A stretch of 64,000 nt of DNA from the NCBI RefSeq assembly GCF_025398335.1, contig NZ_JAODOO010000001.1, positions 62,001-126,000 of the forward strand. Direction: 5' to 3'. Made by a program: the position numbers and the translations under genes. Origin of the DNA: Clostridium sp. CX1 (GTDB taxonomy: Bacteria > Bacillota > Clostridia > Clostridiales > Clostridiaceae). Of this stretch, positions 20,954 to 27,585 are shown piece by piece; position 1 is the first letter of the stretch, and the number at the start of each line of letters is the position of its first letter. Below the pieces are notes generated by a model. That model was not told the origin of the DNA, did no database searches, and saw only the letters and a list, made by a program, of their open reading frames with translations.

Positions 20954-21334
20954 TTAAATAATTTTAACTGGTGTACCAATAGAGACTAGATTAAAAAGCT
21001 CAATAACATTAGCGTTAAGAAGACGGATACATCCATTAGAAACAGCTTTACCAATAGAGGAAGGGTTATTAGTACCATGAATACCGTAACCTCGAGCACT
21101 TAAGCCTAACCATCTTGCACCAAAGGGGCCTCCAGGGTTAACTGCTTTATTTATTATTGTGAAATTTCCCTTTGGGGTAGGGGTGGAAGGTTTACCCACA
21201 GCTACAACATAGCTTTTAAAAACCTTACCATCTTTATAAAGAGTAAGCCTACGAGCAGCTACATTAATGGTAATAGAATAGCTAGGTCTAGGAGCACGAA
21301 ATTGACAGGGAAATAAGAAATTAGAGAGAAACAT
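20954..21334 (-). CDS. Small L,D-transpeptidase (YkuD domain)
   Basis: A 126-residue protein that is almost only a YkuD catalytic domain. It starts YSITINVAARRLTLYKDGK and contains GNFTIINKAVNPGG, the catalytic His in GIHGTNNPSSIG, and the nucleophile Cys with Arg in SNGCIRLLN. It would form 3-3 cross-links in peptidoglycan. There is no clear signal peptide or LysM domain. This is unusual for a vegetative wall enzyme and would fit a spore-compartment enzyme. GGAGGT precedes the ATG. Monocistronic, between the coat operon and the beta-helix lipoprotein gene. Confidence 0.88.
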   Translation of the reverse strand: MFLSNFLFPCQFRAPRPSYSITINVAARRLTLYKDGKVFKSYVVAVGKPSTPTPKGNFTIINKAVNPGGPFGARWLGLSARGYGIHGTNNPSSIGKAVSNGCIRLLNANVIELFNLVSIGTPVKII

Positions 21335-21417: not shown

Positions 21418-21450
21418 TTTAAGGTTTGTTTAAGGTTTAATTAATAAAAT
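21418..21450 (+). promoter_or_regulatory. Tandem-repeat operator and -10 box of the beta-helix lipoprotein gene
   Basis: Two direct 11-bp repeats, TTTAAGGTTTG (21418-21428) and TTTAAGGTTTA (21429-21439), are followed after five bases by a TAAAAT -10 box (21445-21450). The repeats sit where a -35 would be, and no TTGACA is present. This is the classical layout for activation by an OmpR-type response regulator. The same 22 bases, spacing and -10 recur upstream of the VTC gene. Confidence 0.8.
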
Positions 21451-21502
21451 AAATACATGAACTTAGTTTTAAGATAAATGAACTAAAAAGGAGATTTACA
21501 TT

Positions 21503-23518
21503 ATGAATAGAAGATCAATTTACTATAAATTAGTTACTGCACTTGTGTGTACCACATTTTTGTATGCCTGCAGTCCTAATACTTCAACAAAAACTACCAC
21601 TGGAACTGAGGCGGCTACACAGACTAAAGCAAGTATTATTGGTGACAAGGCTATAAAAACTGTTATAGGTGGAGTGGTTACCTACGATAAAGATGACTAC
21701 TACAGTGACTGGAAAAAGGAAAATCCAAACTACATTGAATTAAAGGGAACTACTGCTAATTTAAAGGGTTCTGGTGCTGAGGTAAAAGACGGTAAAGTTA
21801 CTATAACTTCAGCAGGAGTGTATGCAATTAGTGGCAAATTGGATAATGGCCAGATTATTGTAGATGTTAAGGATAAGGGAACTGTTAAAGTTGTTTTAAA
21901 TGGTGCAGAAATAAAGAATTCTAATAATGCACCTATTTACGTAAAAAATGCAGGAAAAACAATTATTTCTCTACAGGAAGGTACAGAGAACTCAATAATA
22001 GATGGAGAAAAATATGTTTTAGCGGATGCTTCAACAGATGAGCCTAGTGCAGCAATCTTTAGTAAAGATAACCTTGTTATAAACGGAAAGGGTAAACTAA
22101 CTGTTAAGGGAAACTATAAGGATGGAATTACTAGTAAAGATGATTTAAAGATTACGGGAGGAAATATTCTAATTACCGCAGTTGATGACGGTTTAGTAGG
22201 ACGTGACATATTAGCGGTTAAAGAAGGTAGTATAACTATTGAATCTGGTGGAGATGCAGTGAAATCTACAAATGATACAGATAATACTAAAGGAATCGTA
22301 GCTATTGACAATGGAGTCTTTAATTTAAAAGCTGAAAAGGATGGAATACAGGCAGAAACAGCAGTGCTTATCGCAGATGGTTCCTTTAATATTACCACTG
22401 GCGGAGGAAGTGCAGTGGGCACTAAAAAAGCGGAAGAGGGCATGAAAGGACCAATGGACAATAAGGACAAAAATACCGCTGAGGCTAATACTGAAACAGA
22501 AACAGAAAGTAAAAAAGCAATAAAAGCGTCTAGTGATATAGGAATCGCTGGAGGCACCTTTAGTATAGATTCTGCTGATGATTCTATACACAGCAATAAC
22601 AACGCTATTATAGAAGGCGGTAACTTTACAATTACTTCTGGTGACGATGGAATTCATGCTGATACAACTTTAGGTATAAAAGGTGGAAAAATAAATATTA
22701 CAAAGAGTTATGAAGGCATAGAAGCTTCTATAGTAACAATTTCAGAAGGTGAAATATATGTTACTTCCAGCGATGACGGTATAAATGCTGGTGGAGGTGC
22801 CGATGGATCATCAACAAATGGCCGTCCTGGACAGAATAATTTTAGTTCTTCAGGAAACAACAAGCTTAATATAAATGGTGGATATGTTGTAGTTAATTCT
22901 ACTGGTGATGGGTTAGATGCCAATGGATCAATATATATGACAAAAGGTACAGTAGTTGTAAGTGGTCCAACCTCTAATGGCAATGGTGCCTTAGATTACG
23001 ATGAAACTTTTGAAATGACTGGCGGCTTACTTGTATCTTCCGGAAGTTCTGGAATGGCACAAGGACCTTCTGATACATCAACTCAGTACTCAATAGTAAT
23101 GAATTATCCACAGACACAATTAGCAGGAACTATTGTAAACTTACAGGATAGTACAGGAAAAACCTTGGCAACCTTTGCACCTGTAAAGGATTATCAAACT
23201 GTAGTTATTAGCTCACCAGAACTTAAAAAGGGTGGAACATATACACTGTATTCAGGGGGAAAGTCAACTGGAGCTGAAAAGGGAGGGCTTTATACTGATG
23301 GAAAATATGAGAATGGAACAAAAGTCGTAGAGTTTACTATTTCAAACTCAGTAACATGGCTCAACGAATCTGGCGTAACAACTGCTAAAAGTTTCAACCC
23401 AGGAGGTGGACATGGAGGTCAAGGAGGTCCAAGAGGACAGCGTCCATCAGGAATGCAAGGTGAAAATCCAGCGGGGGCTCAAGATCAAGTACCTCCTGCA
23501 GAGCAAAGCGAGCAATAG
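21503..23518 (+). CDS. Large beta-helix carbohydrate-binding-like lipoprotein (Cthe_2159 type)
   Basis: A 671-residue exported lipoprotein with lipobox LYAC (acylated Cys at residue 23). The body is made of repeated beta-strand turns with recurring DDGI/GDGI/DDSIH patterns (DGITSKDDLKITGG, SDDGINAGGG), as in the calcium-binding, polygalacturonate-binding beta-helix family known from Cthe_2159. The C-terminus (last 40 residues) is Gly/Gln/Pro-rich and probably disordered. AAAGGAG precedes the ATG. It is convergent with the sensor kinase operon and carries the same tandem-repeat operator as the VTC operon. It probably binds an acidic surface polymer; the ligand is unknown. Confidence 0.75.
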   Translation: MNRRSIYYKLVTALVCTTFLYACSPNTSTKTTTGTEAATQTKASIIGDKAIKTVIGGVVTYDKDDYYSDWKKENPNYIELKGTTANLKGSGAEVKDGKVTITSAGVYAISGKLDNGQIIVDVKDKGTVKVVLNGAEIKNSNNAPIYVKNAGKTIISLQEGTENSIIDGEKYVLADASTDEPSAAIFSKDNLVINGKGKLTVKGNYKDGITSKDDLKITGGNILITAVDDGLVGRDILAVKEGSITIESGGDAVKSTNDTDNTKGIVAIDNGVFNLKAEKDGIQAETAVLIADGSFNITTGGGSAVGTKKAEEGMKGPMDNKDKNTAEANTETETESKKAIKASSDIGIAGGTFSIDSADDSIHSNNNAIIEGGNFTITSGDDGIHADTTLGIKGGKINITKSYEGIEASIVTISEGEIYVTSSDDGINAGGGADGSSTNGRPGQNNFSSSGNNKLNINGGYVVVNSTGDGLDANGSIYMTKGTVVVSGPTSNGNGALDYDETFEMTGGLLVSSGSSGMAQGPSDTSTQYSIVMNYPQTQLAGTIVNLQDSTGKTLATFAPVKDYQTVVISSPELKKGGTYTLYSGGKSTGAEKGGLYTDGKYENGTKVVEFTISNSVTWLNESGVTTAKSFNPGGGHGGQGGPRGQRPSGMQGENPAGAQDQVPPAEQSEQ

Positions 23519-23573
23519 AGTGATTAAAACTAAACTATAATAATTAAAGTTCTTTACTTCTAGGAATTTATTT

Positions 23574-23624
23574 AAAAGGAGCTACTCATAGTGATTAAAA
23601 AATTGCTATGAGCAGCTCCTTTTA
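23574..23624. terminator. Bidirectional terminator between lipoprotein and sensor kinase genes
   Basis: AAAAGGAGCTACTCATAG pairs with CTATGAGCAGCTCCTTTT across a loop of about 14 bases. Both strands have T-rich ends. It lies between two convergent genes. Confidence 0.9.
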
Positions 23625-23677
23625 AAGTTTATTTAGAGAAAGCAGGCTGTGAAGCAGCCAACTTTCCATATTAGTTT

Positions 23678-24943
23678 TTATTTTAGTAAAGTATTCTCCA
23701 CAGGAGGAAGTTCAACTGTGAAGACTGTATCTTCATTTATATTACTTTTAACGGATATTTTACCCTTATGCTGTTCTACTATAGCTCTTGCTATAGACAG
23801 TCCTAATCCATAGCCTCCACTATTCTTGGAGCGAGACTTATCAACCCGGTAAAATCGGTCAAAAACCTTGTCTAGATGATCTTTAGATATTCCTTTGCCA
23901 GTATTGCATACTGTAAGCACTGCTTTAGTATTATGTTTTTTAAATGAAAGGGAAATTTTCCCCTGAGGGTTTGTATATTTTAAAGCATTATCCAACAATA
24001 TCATTACAACCTGTTTAATTTGTTCGCTATTTCCATAGGCTATAATATCAGGTTCAATATCATAATCAAGCAAAATATTATTCTCAAAAATAGAAGCTTC
24101 CATTGTTAAAACAATATTCTCTATAGCCTCACTTAAATCAAAATTAGTAAAAATTAGTTTTATATCTGAGTGGTCTACTTGGGCAAGGTATAACAAATCA
24201 TTAGTTAGTTTGGTCATTCTCCCCACCTCAGATTTTATTAAATAAATCCACTTAGATTGATTTTTTATGGTATCTTCATCATTTGATAAAAGTACTTCAG
24301 CATTGGTATTTATAACAGATAAAGGTGTCTTTAATTCATGTGAGGCATCTGCAATAAACTGTTTCTGCCTATCAAAGGTTTCTTTAATAGGTTTTATAGA
24401 TTTATTGGCGAAGAATCTACTTATAAAGAAAATTGCCACAAGCATAACTAAAGCTACAGTTGAAAAAGTGTAAATTAAATTTGTTAGATATGCGTACCTT
24501 GAAGTTATATCCAGAAATACTATTCTGTACCCAGAGCTATCTGGAAGCTTTTGAAGGATAAATTCCCAGTAAGTATCTTCAAGCTTAAACCTGCCGTTAT
24601 TTGAACCTTTGGATAAGGCTGTATCTTTTACTGTTTTATAAAATTTTTCATCCATATCAAATATAGAAAAGTAATTTGTTAAATTTTTATTATTATCAAT
24701 TGTTACTATGAAGGATATGGATCTTTCTACAGGAGGTTTTTCGTTATTATTATACAGATCAGGATCTATCGGATGATTTTTAGGCTTACGATTAAAATCT
24801 GACAACCTGTTCAGTTCCATATTTATATCATTGCGAACATTTTTGTAGGTGATTAAATATATACTTGTAAAAGAAAGTATCATCATAATTGAGATAATAA
24901 CTAAATTCAAGATTAAAAATCTATTTCTAAGTTTTTTAAACAT
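23678..24943 (-). CDS. Membrane sensor histidine kinase
   Basis: A 421-residue HisKA-type kinase. TM1 spans about residues 9-33, an extracytoplasmic sensor region about 34-153, and TM2 about 154-176. The phospho-acceptor is His202 in FIADASHELKTPLSVI. The ATPase domain has the N box LLDNALKYT, then FDRFYRVDKSRSK and GGYGLGLSIA. The region between TM2 and the H box is short, so a full HAMP domain is doubtful. The sensor domain is rich in Asp, Asn, Lys and Pro and matches no named family that I recognise. It lies 31 bases after the response regulator gene. Confidence 0.93.
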   Translation of the reverse strand: MFKKLRNRFLILNLVIISIMMILSFTSIYLITYKNVRNDINMELNRLSDFNRKPKNHPIDPDLYNNNEKPPVERSISFIVTIDNNKNLTNYFSIFDMDEKFYKTVKDTALSKGSNNGRFKLEDTYWEFILQKLPDSSGYRIVFLDITSRYAYLTNLIYTFSTVALVMLVAIFFISRFFANKSIKPIKETFDRQKQFIADASHELKTPLSVINTNAEVLLSNDEDTIKNQSKWIYLIKSEVGRMTKLTNDLLYLAQVDHSDIKLIFTNFDLSEAIENIVLTMEASIFENNILLDYDIEPDIIAYGNSEQIKQVVMILLDNALKYTNPQGKISLSFKKHNTKAVLTVCNTGKGISKDHLDKVFDRFYRVDKSRSKNSGGYGLGLSIARAIVEQHKGKISVKSNINEDTVFTVELPPVENTLLK

Positions 24944-24974
24944 AATGAACTCCTTAATTGAATATGGTTTATAT

Positions 24975-25649
24975 TTAGTTTGATTCTAAAATATATCCAA
25001 CTCCTCTAACTGTATTAATAGTGGTCTTAGATTTTAGATAAGTTAGTTTTTTCCTTAAAAATGAGATATAAACTTCTACGTGATTATGTTCCACTTCAGA
25101 GTCGAAGCCCCACAGTTTTTCAATTATTAATTCCTTGGGGGAAACTAAGTTTTTTCTCGTAATAAGCAGCTCTAGAAGCTGAGCTTCCTTCAATATTAGT
25201 TTAATCTCTTTACTGTCCTTAGTTAGCTTTAAAGTAGAGGTGTTTAACTGTAAGTCACCAAATTTTAAGGTGTTGTCCTGTTGTACCTCGCCTTTTCTTC
25301 TCGATATAGCTCTGATTCTAGCAAGAAGTTCTTCGCTTGCAAAAGGCTTTGCTAAATAATCGTCAGCGCCACTATCAAGTCCTACCACCTTATCGCTTAT
25401 TTCTCCTCTTGCAGTTAAAAGTATAACAGGAGTAGAAATTTCTTCTTTCCTAATATTTTTAAGAATACTTATACCATCCATTTTAGGAAGCATTATATCT
25501 AGTATTATTAAATCATAGATGCCGCTTAGGGCGTTATCCAGACCACTCTCACCATCGTTAACGGCGTCAACAGTATAATTATTTTTCCTTAATATTTGTG
25601 CTAAAGCCTCGGCTAAAGGAAGTTCATCTTCTACTATTAAGATTCTCAT
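24975..25649 (-). CDS. OmpR-family response regulator
   Basis: A 224-residue two-domain regulator. The receiver has the acidic pair Glu7-Asp8 (IVEDE), phospho-acceptor Asp51 (LILDIMLPKMDG), Thr in LLTARG and Lys in YLAKPF. The C-terminal winged helix ends in VEVYISFLRKKL and TVRGVGYILE. It pairs with the sensor kinase downstream. A degenerate copy of the tandem repeat found before the lipoprotein and VTC genes lies before its own start, so it probably controls all three units including itself. OmpR-type proteins bind as head-to-tail dimers to such 11-bp repeats. Confidence 0.95.
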   Translation of the reverse strand: MRILIVEDELPLAEALAQILRKNNYTVDAVNDGESGLDNALSGIYDLIILDIMLPKMDGISILKNIRKEEISTPVILLTARGEISDKVVGLDSGADDYLAKPFASEELLARIRAISRRKGEVQQDNTLKFGDLQLNTSTLKLTKDSKEIKLILKEAQLLELLITRKNLVSPKELIIEKLWGFDSEVEHNHVEVYISFLRKKLTYLKSKTTINTVRGVGYILESN

Positions 25650-25684
25650 TATATTTCCCTCTTTTCTCTTAGATATATCTATTT

Positions 25685-25718
25685 ATTATATCATAAGAAA
25701 CCTTTAATAAAGCTTAAA
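25685..25718 (-). promoter_or_regulatory. Degenerate tandem-repeat operator and -10 box of the response regulator operon
   Basis: Read on the minus strand, TTTAAGCTTTA (25718-25708) and TTAAAGGTTTC (25707-25697) match the two-repeat operator at 18 of 22 positions. After six bases a TATAAT -10 box follows (25690-25685). This suggests autoregulation of the kinase/regulator operon, with a weaker site and a better -10 than the two target promoters. Confidence 0.6.
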
Positions 25719-25754
25719 TACAATCTGTCTAAATCATTAGCACAGTTAAAAATA

Positions 25755-25787
25755 TTTAAGGTTTGTTTAAGGTTTATTTTATAAAAT
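25755..25787 (+). promoter_or_regulatory. Tandem-repeat operator and -10 box of the VTC/DUF4956 operon
   Basis: TTTAAGGTTTG (25755-25765) and TTTAAGGTTTA (25766-25776) are identical to the repeats at 21418-21439. A TAAAAT -10 box (25782-25787) follows at the same five-base distance. It lies in the divergent region between the response regulator and the VTC gene. Confidence 0.8.
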
Positions 25788-25886
25788 AAGCTCATAAGGA
25801 AGGGATATTAAGATTAAAGAATTTTAGTTCTTAAAATAAAGTCACAACAGTAAAAGTTGATAAATCTAGGGGAAAGGAGAATAAAA

Positions 25887-26684
25887 ATGGCTATAGAGGT
25901 TTTTAACAGAAGTGAATGTAAGTTTTTAATTGAAGAGGACATATATGAAGAATTAAATACAAAGCTTTTAAAACATATGGATATGGATGATCACAATAAG
26001 GAAGCTGATTTTTATACGATAAGCAATATTTACTACGATACGGAGGACGATTATTTAATTAGAAACTCCTTATCAAAACCTAAGTATAAAGAAAAGATTC
26101 GCCTTAGATCCTATGGAGTTCCTAATATAGATGACAAAGTATATTTAGAAATTAAGAAAAAGTTTAATGGCATTGGCAATAAGAGAAGAACTTCCCTTAA
26201 ATTAAATGAGGCTTATGAATTTTTAAGTACAGGTGAAAAACCGGAGCTTAAAAGTTATATGAATAAACAAGTCATTAATGAACTACAGTACAGCTTAAAG
26301 CTCTATAACGTTGAACCGAAGCTGTATCTAGCCTATGACAGAAAAGCGATGTTTGGAAGAGATAATAGAGAAGTAAGAATAACCTTTGACACAAATATTC
26401 GGACAAGAAGATATGATTTGAGGCTTGAAGCAGGAAATTATGGAGAGCCTCTCTTAGAAAAAGGAAAGATGCTTATGGAGGTTAAGGTAGAAAAGAATAT
26501 TCCACTTTGGCTGGCTAAGCTTCTATCAGAATATAAAATTTACAAGACAAGCTTTTCAAAGTATGGTAATGAATATAAAAAAATGATTATGAATAATAAA
26601 AGATTGAAGGGAGAAATGAATAAATGCTCGACTCAGTATTCAGCTCAATATCAAATGCAGCAGCTAGCACACCAATTGCTTTAA
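25887..26684 (+). CDS. VTC-domain polyphosphate polymerase-like protein
   Basis: A 265-residue soluble protein of the VTC family, the tunnel-fold domain that makes polyphosphate from ATP in yeast Vtc4. The basic and acidic tunnel residues are visible: FNRSECKF, YYDTEDDYLI, KEKIRLRSYG, VYLEIKKKFNG with NKRR, ITFDTNIRTRR, LMEVKVEK and TSFSKYGNEY. The ATG at 25887 follows GGAAAGGAG; an upstream TTG at 25857 has no such site. Its last 61 bases overlap the DUF4956 membrane gene. Bacterial VTC proteins commonly pair with DUF4956 and with CotH or beta-helix surface proteins. No polymerase activity is shown by sequence alone. Confidence 0.85.
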   Translation: MAIEVFNRSECKFLIEEDIYEELNTKLLKHMDMDDHNKEADFYTISNIYYDTEDDYLIRNSLSKPKYKEKIRLRSYGVPNIDDKVYLEIKKKFNGIGNKRRTSLKLNEAYEFLSTGEKPELKSYMNKQVINELQYSLKLYNVEPKLYLAYDRKAMFGRDNREVRITFDTNIRTRRYDLRLEAGNYGEPLLEKGKMLMEVKVEKNIPLWLAKLLSEYKIYKTSFSKYGNEYKKMIMNNKRLKGEMNKCSTQYSAQYQMQQLAHQLL

Positions 26685-27319
26685 CAGATTCAGTTTTAAC
26701 TATCCTTATATCTTTCATATTAGGGGCAGTTATTAGTATTACCTATATGAAGACCTCAAGTAAAGGCGTATACTCACAAAACTTTTCTTTAACACTTGTG
26801 ATAATTCCAACGGTAATAGCTATCATAGTACTTTTAATAGGGAATAACATTGCTAGAGCTTTTAGTTTAGCTGGGGCCTTTTCAATAATTAAATTTAGAA
26901 GTGCACCTGGAGATCCAAAGGATATTGCTTTTGTACTATTTACTATGGCAGCAGGTCTTGCTTGTGGTGTAGGGGCTTATAGTTATGCCGGGATGTTCAC
27001 AGCTTTTCTTTGTGTGCTAATGTATATTCTTAGCATTATAAACTTTGGAGCAAAAAAACTTTCCAATAAACTTTTAAAGATTACAATACCAGAAGATTTA
27101 GATTATGAAGGTGCTTTCGAGGATATATTTGGCACCTATACAACTAGCCACCAATTAATAAAAGTAAAAACTATGGATCTAGGCAGTCTGTTTCAGCTTA
27201 TTTTCACTGTGACAATGAATAATAAAAAGAGTGAGAAGGAGTTTATAGATGCCTTAAGATGCAGGAACGGAAATTTAAATATTACTTTGTCTATGAGTGA
27301 AGATATATCCTATGGTTAG
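26624..27319 (+). CDS. DUF4956 membrane protein
   Basis: A 231-residue protein with four or five N-terminal membrane helices (about residues 15-145) and a cytoplasmic C-terminal domain of about 85 residues. The family core is FSLAGAFSIIKFRSAPGDPK followed by DIAFVLFTMAAGLACG. An AAGGGAG site lies inside the VTC coding sequence about 10 bases before the ATG. The 61-base overlap makes coupled translation likely. DUF4956 proteins almost always accompany VTC-domain genes, so the pair may act as a membrane complex that makes or moves a phosphate polymer. Function unproven. Confidence 0.85.
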   Translation: MLDSVFSSISNAAASTPIALTDSVLTILISFILGAVISITYMKTSSKGVYSQNFSLTLVIIPTVIAIIVLLIGNNIARAFSLAGAFSIIKFRSAPGDPKDIAFVLFTMAAGLACGVGAYSYAGMFTAFLCVLMYILSIINFGAKKLSNKLLKITIPEDLDYEGAFEDIFGTYTTSHQLIKVKTMDLGSLFQLIFTVTMNNKKSEKEFIDALRCRNGNLNITLSMSEDISYG

Positions 27320-27329
27320 AATGGTAAAC

Positions 27330-27378
27330 AACTGCCTGTAAGTAGCTTAATTGGCTGCTTACAGGCAGTTATATTTTT
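27330..27378 (+). terminator. Terminator after the VTC/DUF4956 operon
   Basis: AACTGCCTGTAAG pairs with CTTACAGGCAGTT (extended by GC/GC with one mismatch) around a short loop, followed by ATATTTTTA. Confidence 0.92.
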
Positions 27379-27482
27379 AACATTCTCCGGCGTTATCTAT
27401 TTATTTAGAGATAAATGTAAGAAAGAAGGCATAACTAACAGATAATGAGAGATAATATTAGCATAAAGGCATTTATAGTGGT

Positions 27483-27585
27483 ATTTCGACGGTATTTTTC
27501 AATATACACGGTATAGCTACCGTTGCTTTAAAGGGCATTGGTACTATACAATGTCTCTCGTAAGATAATACAGGGGGAAAAACAT
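27483..27585 (+). promoter_or_regulatory. Structured leader of the KimA-like transporter gene
   Basis: The leader contains a direct repeat of ACGGTAT, a hairpin ACGGTA-TAGC-TACCGT (27508-27523) and a second hairpin GGCATTG/CAATGTC (27533-27554). It does not show the conserved blocks of the ydaO c-di-AMP riboswitch that often precedes this transporter family. A structured regulatory leader is possible but not proven. Confidence 0.4.

Follow-up and report, generated by a model that had tools for sequence, protein, structure and literature searches.

The closest described relatives of the system reported here, a set of tandem-repeat operators around a response regulator gene in a 64,000-nucleotide stretch of the Clostridium sp. 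CX1 genome (hereafter the window), are built on CiaR-like regulators. CiaR of Streptococcus binds TTTAAG-N5-TTTAAG, and a promoter search placed the -10 box ten bases past the last TTTAAG; the accessible part of the same paper reports relatives of CiaH only in streptococci (PMC3091779). In Bacillus anthracis, the phosphorylated CiaR-like protein BAS0540 shifts TTTAAG-N5-TTTAAG DNA in vitro, its own promoter included, and a BAS0540-BAS0541 regulon of 23 genes was predicted with the streptococcal motif (PMC4938410). Genes of the kind found at our locus have been described elsewhere: CotH, polyphosphate polymerase, DUF4956 and DUF4832 accessory genes adjoin pel clusters in streptococci and clostridia (PMC7112168), and the NELoc-2 VTC-CotH cluster of Clostridium perfringens consists mostly of genes for predicted membrane- or cell-wall-associated products (PMC2879425). 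CiaR-like regulators are thus already on record as users of this type of operator; the novelty here lies in the position of the operators and in the genes that they would control. In the open-licence literature, at the partial coverage those sources offered, we found no description of such regulation for this operator, for DUF4956 or for VTC with CotH.

The locus spans 21418-27370 of the window and consists of a beta-helix lipoprotein gene, a kinase-regulator pair on the opposite strand that converges on it, and a VTC-DUF4956 operon. We read its three repeats as operators of the regulator encoded between them, a putative CiaR-type activator of the OmpR family that would control a surface gene module as well as its own gene, and we give this reading a probability of about 0.82. 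The operators are arranged as follows.

21418-21450, + strand: operator-promoter 1, with TTTAAG at 21418-21423 and 21429-21434 and the -10 box TAAAAT at 21445-21450.
25755-25787, + strand: operator-promoter 2, with TTTAAG at 25755-25760 and 25766-25771 and the -10 box TAAAAT at 25782-25787.
25685-25718, - strand: operator-promoter 3, weaker and putatively autoregulatory, TTTAAG-N5-TTAAAG-N11-TATAAT.

Read directly, operator 1, which precedes the beta-helix gene, is TTTAAG GTTTG TTTAAG GTTTAATTAA TAAAAT, and operator 2, which precedes the VTC-DUF4956 operon, is TTTAAG GTTTG TTTAAG GTTTATTTTA TAAAAT. Both contain the identical block TTTAAGGTTTGTTTAAGGTTT, and at both the -10 box begins exactly ten bases past the last TTTAAG, at 21445 and 25782, so that operator and spacing are those described for CiaR. 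The initial annotation had reported an identical 22-bp tandem repeat with TAAAAT at these two places, and its letters and positions hold. The same is true of the copy that it had placed before the divergent regulator gene, on the minus strand from 25718 to 25685 (TTTAAG CTTTA TTAAAG GTTTCTTATGA TATAAT), which matches the repeat at 18 of 22 bases; here the second half-site is TTAAAG and the -10 box follows it after eleven bases rather than the ten of both exact copies. Its further suggestion that the repeats replace the -35 box also agrees with our results, as hexamers at spacings of 15-19 match TTGACA at only 0-1 of 6 positions at either exact promoter. Both exact promoters were missing from the output of a general promoter scan, as would be expected if the -35 box is replaced.

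Within the window, three operator matches were found at up to three mismatches, compared with 0.13 on average and never more than 1 in 100 shuffles. The whole genome (4,238,163 bases in 71 contigs) yielded 11 matches at this threshold and a single one for the reversed pattern. The only exact matches in the genome are the two window copies, with the regulator copy at two mismatches; the initial annotation had named many copies in unrelated places as a finding that would speak against it, and no such excess exists in this genome. Among the eight matches outside the window, one has two mismatches and the rest have three, none carries a TANNNT box at a gap of 9-11 (three have one at a gap of 8), and two (L006 and L011) span or overlap a long open reading frame (ORF). 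A second, looser genome pattern that specified only TTAAG-N6-TTAAG and a TANNNT box returned eight rows, one place appearing twice, against three for the reversed control; among these rows, none but the two window promoters resemble TTTAAGGTTTGTTTAAGGTTT. A wider regulon in this genome was set aside: the five looser-pattern places outside the window share few extra letters and could not be told apart from chance. One of them, L031, is intergenic and lies shortly upstream of an ORF.

The genes of the locus, with the domain matches on which we base their names, are listed below.

21503..23518, + strand: Cthe_2159-type beta-helix protein, 671 amino acids (aa); Pfam PF14262, E 2.7e-101; PDB 4peu, E 1.7e-38.
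23678..24943, - strand: sensor histidine kinase, 421 aa, with HisKA and HATPase_c domains.
24975..25649, - strand: OmpR/PhoB-type response regulator, 224 aa; Response_reg PF00072, E 5.8e-31; Trans_reg_C PF00486, E 1.1e-18.
25887..26684, + strand: VTC-domain protein, 265 aa; Pfam PF09359, E 7.7e-55.
26624..27319, + strand: DUF4956 protein, 231 aa, its gene overlapping that of the VTC protein; Pfam PF16316, E 5.4e-14.
27330..27370, + strand: intrinsic-terminator-like hairpin past the VTC-DUF4956 unit, an 18-pair stem followed by a T-rich tail.

With its receiver and winged-helix Trans_reg_C domains, the window regulator belongs to the OmpR/PhoB family. The best NCBIfam match, RppA, scores 208.7 against a cut-off of 250, so no name was assigned from that source. 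Its recognition helix, HVEVYISFLRKKL (residues 190-202), is identical to the S. pneumoniae helix at 9 of 13 residues, sharing VEVY, S and RKKL with the streptococcal VVEVYVSKVRKKL (PMC3091779, from the accessible part). It is similar to the streptococcal consensus VVEVY(V/I)SK(V/I)RKKL only and does not conform to it. We conclude that the system probably works like CiaR, and we do not file it as CiaRH itself, since the helix is not streptococcal; besides the four differing helix residues, the targets here are a VTC-DUF4956 pair and a beta-helix lipoprotein.

It is also possible that the operators belong to another OmpR-family regulator (PhoP-, WalR- or ResD-like) and that the encoded regulator is merely adjacent, although we consider this unlikely. 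Head-to-tail hexamers repeated every 11 bases are a feature shared by OmpR-family regulators, and the genome offers ample candidates, with 24 OmpR-type matches at E 1e-20 including the window regulator. However, the helices of the other 23 paralogues are unlike that of CiaR, with which they share at most 6 of 13 residues, leaving the window regulator as the only one of the 24 with a CiaR-like helix. The locus of another OmpR-type regulator in the same genome (L057, 2458) contains a similar tandem repeat, ATTAAGGTTTTGTTAAGG, which may be that paralogue's own operator.

The distribution of sites and regulator in 206 Clostridiaceae genomes argues against this alternative. The family pattern TTTAAGNTTNNTTTAAGNTT-N7-TANAAT, with up to one mismatch, gave 144 matches in 82 of the 206 genomes, compared with 2 for the reversed pattern, and once the gap was allowed to vary from 3 to 11, 46 of the 52 exact matches fell at a gap of 7, the spacing seen in the window (reversed control, 1). 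Orthologues of the regulator at E 1e-68 occur in 55 genomes. Exact site and regulator occur together in 35 genomes, the site alone in 4, the regulator alone in 20 and neither in 147 (Fisher 6e-21), which places the regulator in 35 of 39 genomes with an exact site and in 20 of 167 others. With one mismatch allowed, the corresponding counts are 51, 31, 4 and 120.

The same association was found where VTC genes were taken as the starting point. When named genomes were scanned with the VTC protein of the window as query, 15 loci were obtained, in 10 of which a strict operator lies about 80 bases upstream of VTC, and a relaxed scan found the operator before VTC in two Paenibacillus loci as well, at 15 and 14 of 16 positions. 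The regulator is present in exactly these 12 operator-bearing genomes (12/12) of the 15; the other three (L023, L024 and L025) have no regulator at E 1e-60 and no operator, their best same-strand matches reaching 10, 12 and 11 of 16 positions. In L018 and L019 the regulator lies on another contig, and the operator before VTC is still kept.

In Clostridium magnum (L012, 5755-7920; the same region in L027 and L190), whose regulator is 92% identical to ours, a 415-aa ORF that by eye looks transposon-associated, of the TnpB type, separates the regulator from the divergent VTC promoter; no regulator-strand operator was seen there, and the VTC operator is intact. In L204 (genome G138), the regulator gene contains in-frame stops (three TAA) and the VTC operator is still exact, which raises the possibility of a recent loss of the regulator.

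Putative autoregulatory sites were sought in the 260 bases upstream of 30 of the 55 orthologues (L036 and L190-L218). An operator on the regulator strand, matching at least 14 of 16 positions, was present in 23 of the 30, and one more has 13.

Regulator relatives outside the family indicate that helix and operator may have changed together. In a phylum sample of 398 genomes, 41 have a regulator relative at E 1e-58, our own genome included. Six sampled genomes belong to family f33, probably Paenibacillus-like by its resemblance to the two loci L021 and L022, and their regulators are 70-73% identical to ours; in five of the six an operator matching 15 of 16 positions persists on the opposite strand (TTTAAG-N5-TTAAAG or TTTAAG-N5-TTCAAG), and in L257 it does not. 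The regulators of four other genomes (G586, G602, G423 and G500) have the helix NVEAYISFLRKK(F/L), with VEAY in place of VEVY. When the fourth base of either hexamer was allowed to be A or C, a search of 15 genomes gave 25 matches, against 2 for the reversed pattern. All 15 matches in those four genomes are TTTCAG-TTTCAG, whereas the 10 in the other genomes comprise six TTTAAG pairs, two mixed sites and two TTTCAG pairs (G555 and G261). The TTTCAG sites of the four genomes precede the regulator and VTC-DUF4956 pairs, among others, and by eye also glycosyltransferase-like and DUF4405-resembling genes. The same four genomes contain two divergent operators almost back to back.

When the order of G602 was added, VEAY regulators were found in 10 genomes, all 10 with TTTCAG in at least one half-site and one of them mixed (the clade with TTTCAG-N5-TTTCAG operators comprises L268-L270 and L306-L313). 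Of 50 other regulators with a site matching at least 13 of 16 positions, 46 have no C at the fourth base; the exceptions are L262 (TTTCAG), L314 (mixed), and the pair L214 and L218, where a poor match on the sense strand accounts for the C. That the operator letter differs in the clade where the helix of the window-type regulator differs also speaks against another regulator as the owner of the sites. The VEAY regulators form one clade on the tree, and we therefore count them as one contrast and not as ten. Given this single contrast and the exceptions L262, L314 and G555, the idea that residue 193, in the helix, by itself determines the fourth base of the operator is not established. Taken more broadly, we lean with moderate confidence toward the view that a CiaR-type operator code is widespread in Bacillota beyond streptococci, is tied to a surface module of VTC-DUF4956 (with Cthe_2159, CotH and glycosyltransferase genes), and was rewritten once, a Val-to-Ala helix change going with TTTAAG to TTTCAG at the detected targets of the clade; the TTTCAG pair in G555 slightly lowers these odds.

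Several observations weigh against our assignment of the repeats to the encoded regulator. The helix matches that of CiaR at only 9 of 13 residues, and the co-occurrence statistics count related genomes as independent. Four genomes have an exact site and no regulator at E 1e-68, rising to 31 at one mismatch, and these four also speak for another regulator; two of them (G132 and G161) have a relative of 52-53% identity with differing helices, NIEVYFSYLRKKL and VVWVYISYLRKKL, and in the other two (G041 and G043) the best match is only 45% identical. Conversely, four genomes with the regulator have no site even at one mismatch. Within 260 bases, 6 of the 30 orthologues have no regulator-strand operator; in two of these (L214 and L218) the opposite strand carries a good operator, and in L213, L216 and L217, whose helix is the right one, neither strand does. 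The switch to TTTCAG is a single contrast on the tree with the exceptions L262 (VEVY with TTTCAG) and L314 (mixed), and G555, a VEVY genome, has one TTTCAG pair. Among the sites found across the family, 78 of 137 precede another gene or no recognized gene. Finally, regulator binding and effects on expression are deduced from sequence comparison. Even so, the CiaR operator and spacing, the helix unique among 24, the co-occurrence, and the clade-wide change of helix and operator all favor the proposal in the initial annotation that the encoded OmpR-type regulator uses the repeats.

If this regulator does act on the repeats, the sensor kinase (23678-24943) would read an envelope signal and phosphorylate it, and two regulator molecules would bind head to tail, one on each TTTAAG half-site, with about one helical turn between them. 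The bound pair would take the place of the -35 box and recruit RNA polymerase to the -10 box ten bases downstream, so that the beta-helix lipoprotein gene and the VTC-DUF4956 operon would be turned on. At the regulator's own divergent promoter, the weaker operator would allow autoregulation, and its weakness would suit a feedback that needs more regulator. We infer both the dependence on phosphorylation and the action as an activator rather than a repressor, favoring activation because the -10 box stands at a fixed distance and a -35 box is missing.

Alternatively, the repeats could be the sites of this regulator and yet repress, with phosphorylation shutting the surface genes off. Although the direction of regulation is not readable from sequence, we regard repression as quite improbable, because the repeats fill the -35 region at both target promoters, where hexamers agree with TTGACA at 0-1 of 6 positions, and the -10 box keeps a constant distance from them (46 of 52), as at the CiaR-activated promoters in the available text of PMC3091779. 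That the repeats reflect only chance or the shared ancestry of AT-rich promoter sequence, with no regulatory meaning, is exceedingly improbable: an AT-rich motif in a large search space would speak for it, but shuffles gave 0.13 matches against the 3 found, the reversed pattern gave 2 against 144, and the operator still stands before VTC in two Paenibacillus loci.

The targets of the proposed activator point to the cell surface, on account of the beta-helix protein, which is related to 4peu and whose N-terminus is lipobox-like (LYAC, read by eye), and a VTC-DUF4956 pair of the kind that adjoins pel genes. In Gram-positive bacteria, such pairs are found next to CotH genes and genes for surface polymers, and residues 6-176 of our VTC protein weakly match yeast Vtc4 (3g3q, E 1e-4). 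The targets would probably build or anchor a cell-surface polymer, a part of our interpretation that is plausible, whereas that of operator and regulator is supported well by the comparisons; among the portions of the open-licence literature available, we found no paper stating what VTC-DUF4956 pairs make or when.

Comparison with the described systems shows both shared and differing parts. In the pel-linked module, polyphosphate polymerase genes (which we equate with VTC) and DUF4956 genes are tied to a surface polysaccharide, and the available text describes no regulator or operator for that module's genes (PMC7112168). NELoc-2 has VTC genes with CotH in an envelope-type locus, and what is available of that source is a gene catalogue that describes no such regulation (PMC2879425). 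The predicted BAS0540 regulon includes an efflux membrane-fusion subunit, a class that also occurs among the family-wide targets here, but no VTC, DUF4956 or Cthe_2159 gene is among the 7 of its 23 predicted genes that are tabled in the accessible part (PMC4938410). CarR of Fusobacterium was set aside as a relative, its motif being described there, as far as the source is available, only as 17-bp and AT-rich (PMC12186487).

To see how far the operator extends across the family, surroundings were read for all but six of the 144 sites, in a set of 140 sites from which three repeats were dropped by sequence (one being the same sequence in a second genome). Of the resulting 137 sites, 39 precede VTC, 10 the regulator gene and 6 a Cthe_2159 gene, and 4 fall inside a long ORF; the 42 exact sites divide into 25 before VTC, 3 before Cthe_2159, 1 inside an ORF and 13 others. 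The other downstream proteins fall into 33 clusters, and one representative each of 20 of these was scanned with Pfam. The matches were a family-2 glycosyltransferase with a GtrA domain, CotH, a phosphodiester glycosidase, a BspA-type leucine-rich repeat protein, a beta-helix match below cut-off, a PpiC foldase, HlyD and FtsX/MacB efflux parts, a P-type ATPase, a 4Fe-4S/FMN-binding protein, ApbE, DUF4405, a metallo-beta-lactamase fold, a beta-lactamase-family protein, an ABC_trans_CmpB protein, a RelA/SpoT domain, a FlxA-like protein, a borderline DUF2680 match and a chemotaxis receptor, with one representative lacking any match. Many of these family-wide targets look envelope-related or exported and others do not, and some of the one-mismatch sites will be chance. 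The initial claim of three units sharing one operator stands, and as the family-wide sites precede many further genes, the system is wider than had been claimed.

If our reading is correct, the candidate regulator and its precise operator would allow the VTC-DUF4956 module to be switched and its partners to be listed genome by genome. The CiaR operator rule, so far streptococcal, would then also extend to clostridia and Paenibacillus, and the system would provide a natural example of recognition-helix and operator change; a widespread, rewritten CiaR-type code, if true, would be a direct handle on the module's product and its controlling signal.

Several smaller observations concern individual targets and neighbors. 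Elsewhere among the clostridia, the operator stands before 4Fe-4S/FMN-binding genes in L099, L132, L169 and L172, before an ApbE gene in L163 and before DUF4405 genes in L075, L088 and L121 (L169, L163 and L121 being the scanned representatives), hinting at a possible flavin or electron-transfer branch of the regulon. The terminator-like hairpin at the end of the locus is one of 5 such sites found in 6.7 kb, where 2.9 were expected. In L012 (9458-10483), L014 and L015, a glycosyltransferase-like gene, recognized by its likeness to the L092 cluster, lies directly 3' of DUF4956; the window has no such gene at 27319-27538, where the terminator-like hairpin and an amino-acid-permease-type gene are found instead. 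At the other end of the locus, a small YkuD-type L,D-transpeptidase gene (20954-21334, - strand) is divergent from the beta-helix gene, and the two have their upstream region in common.

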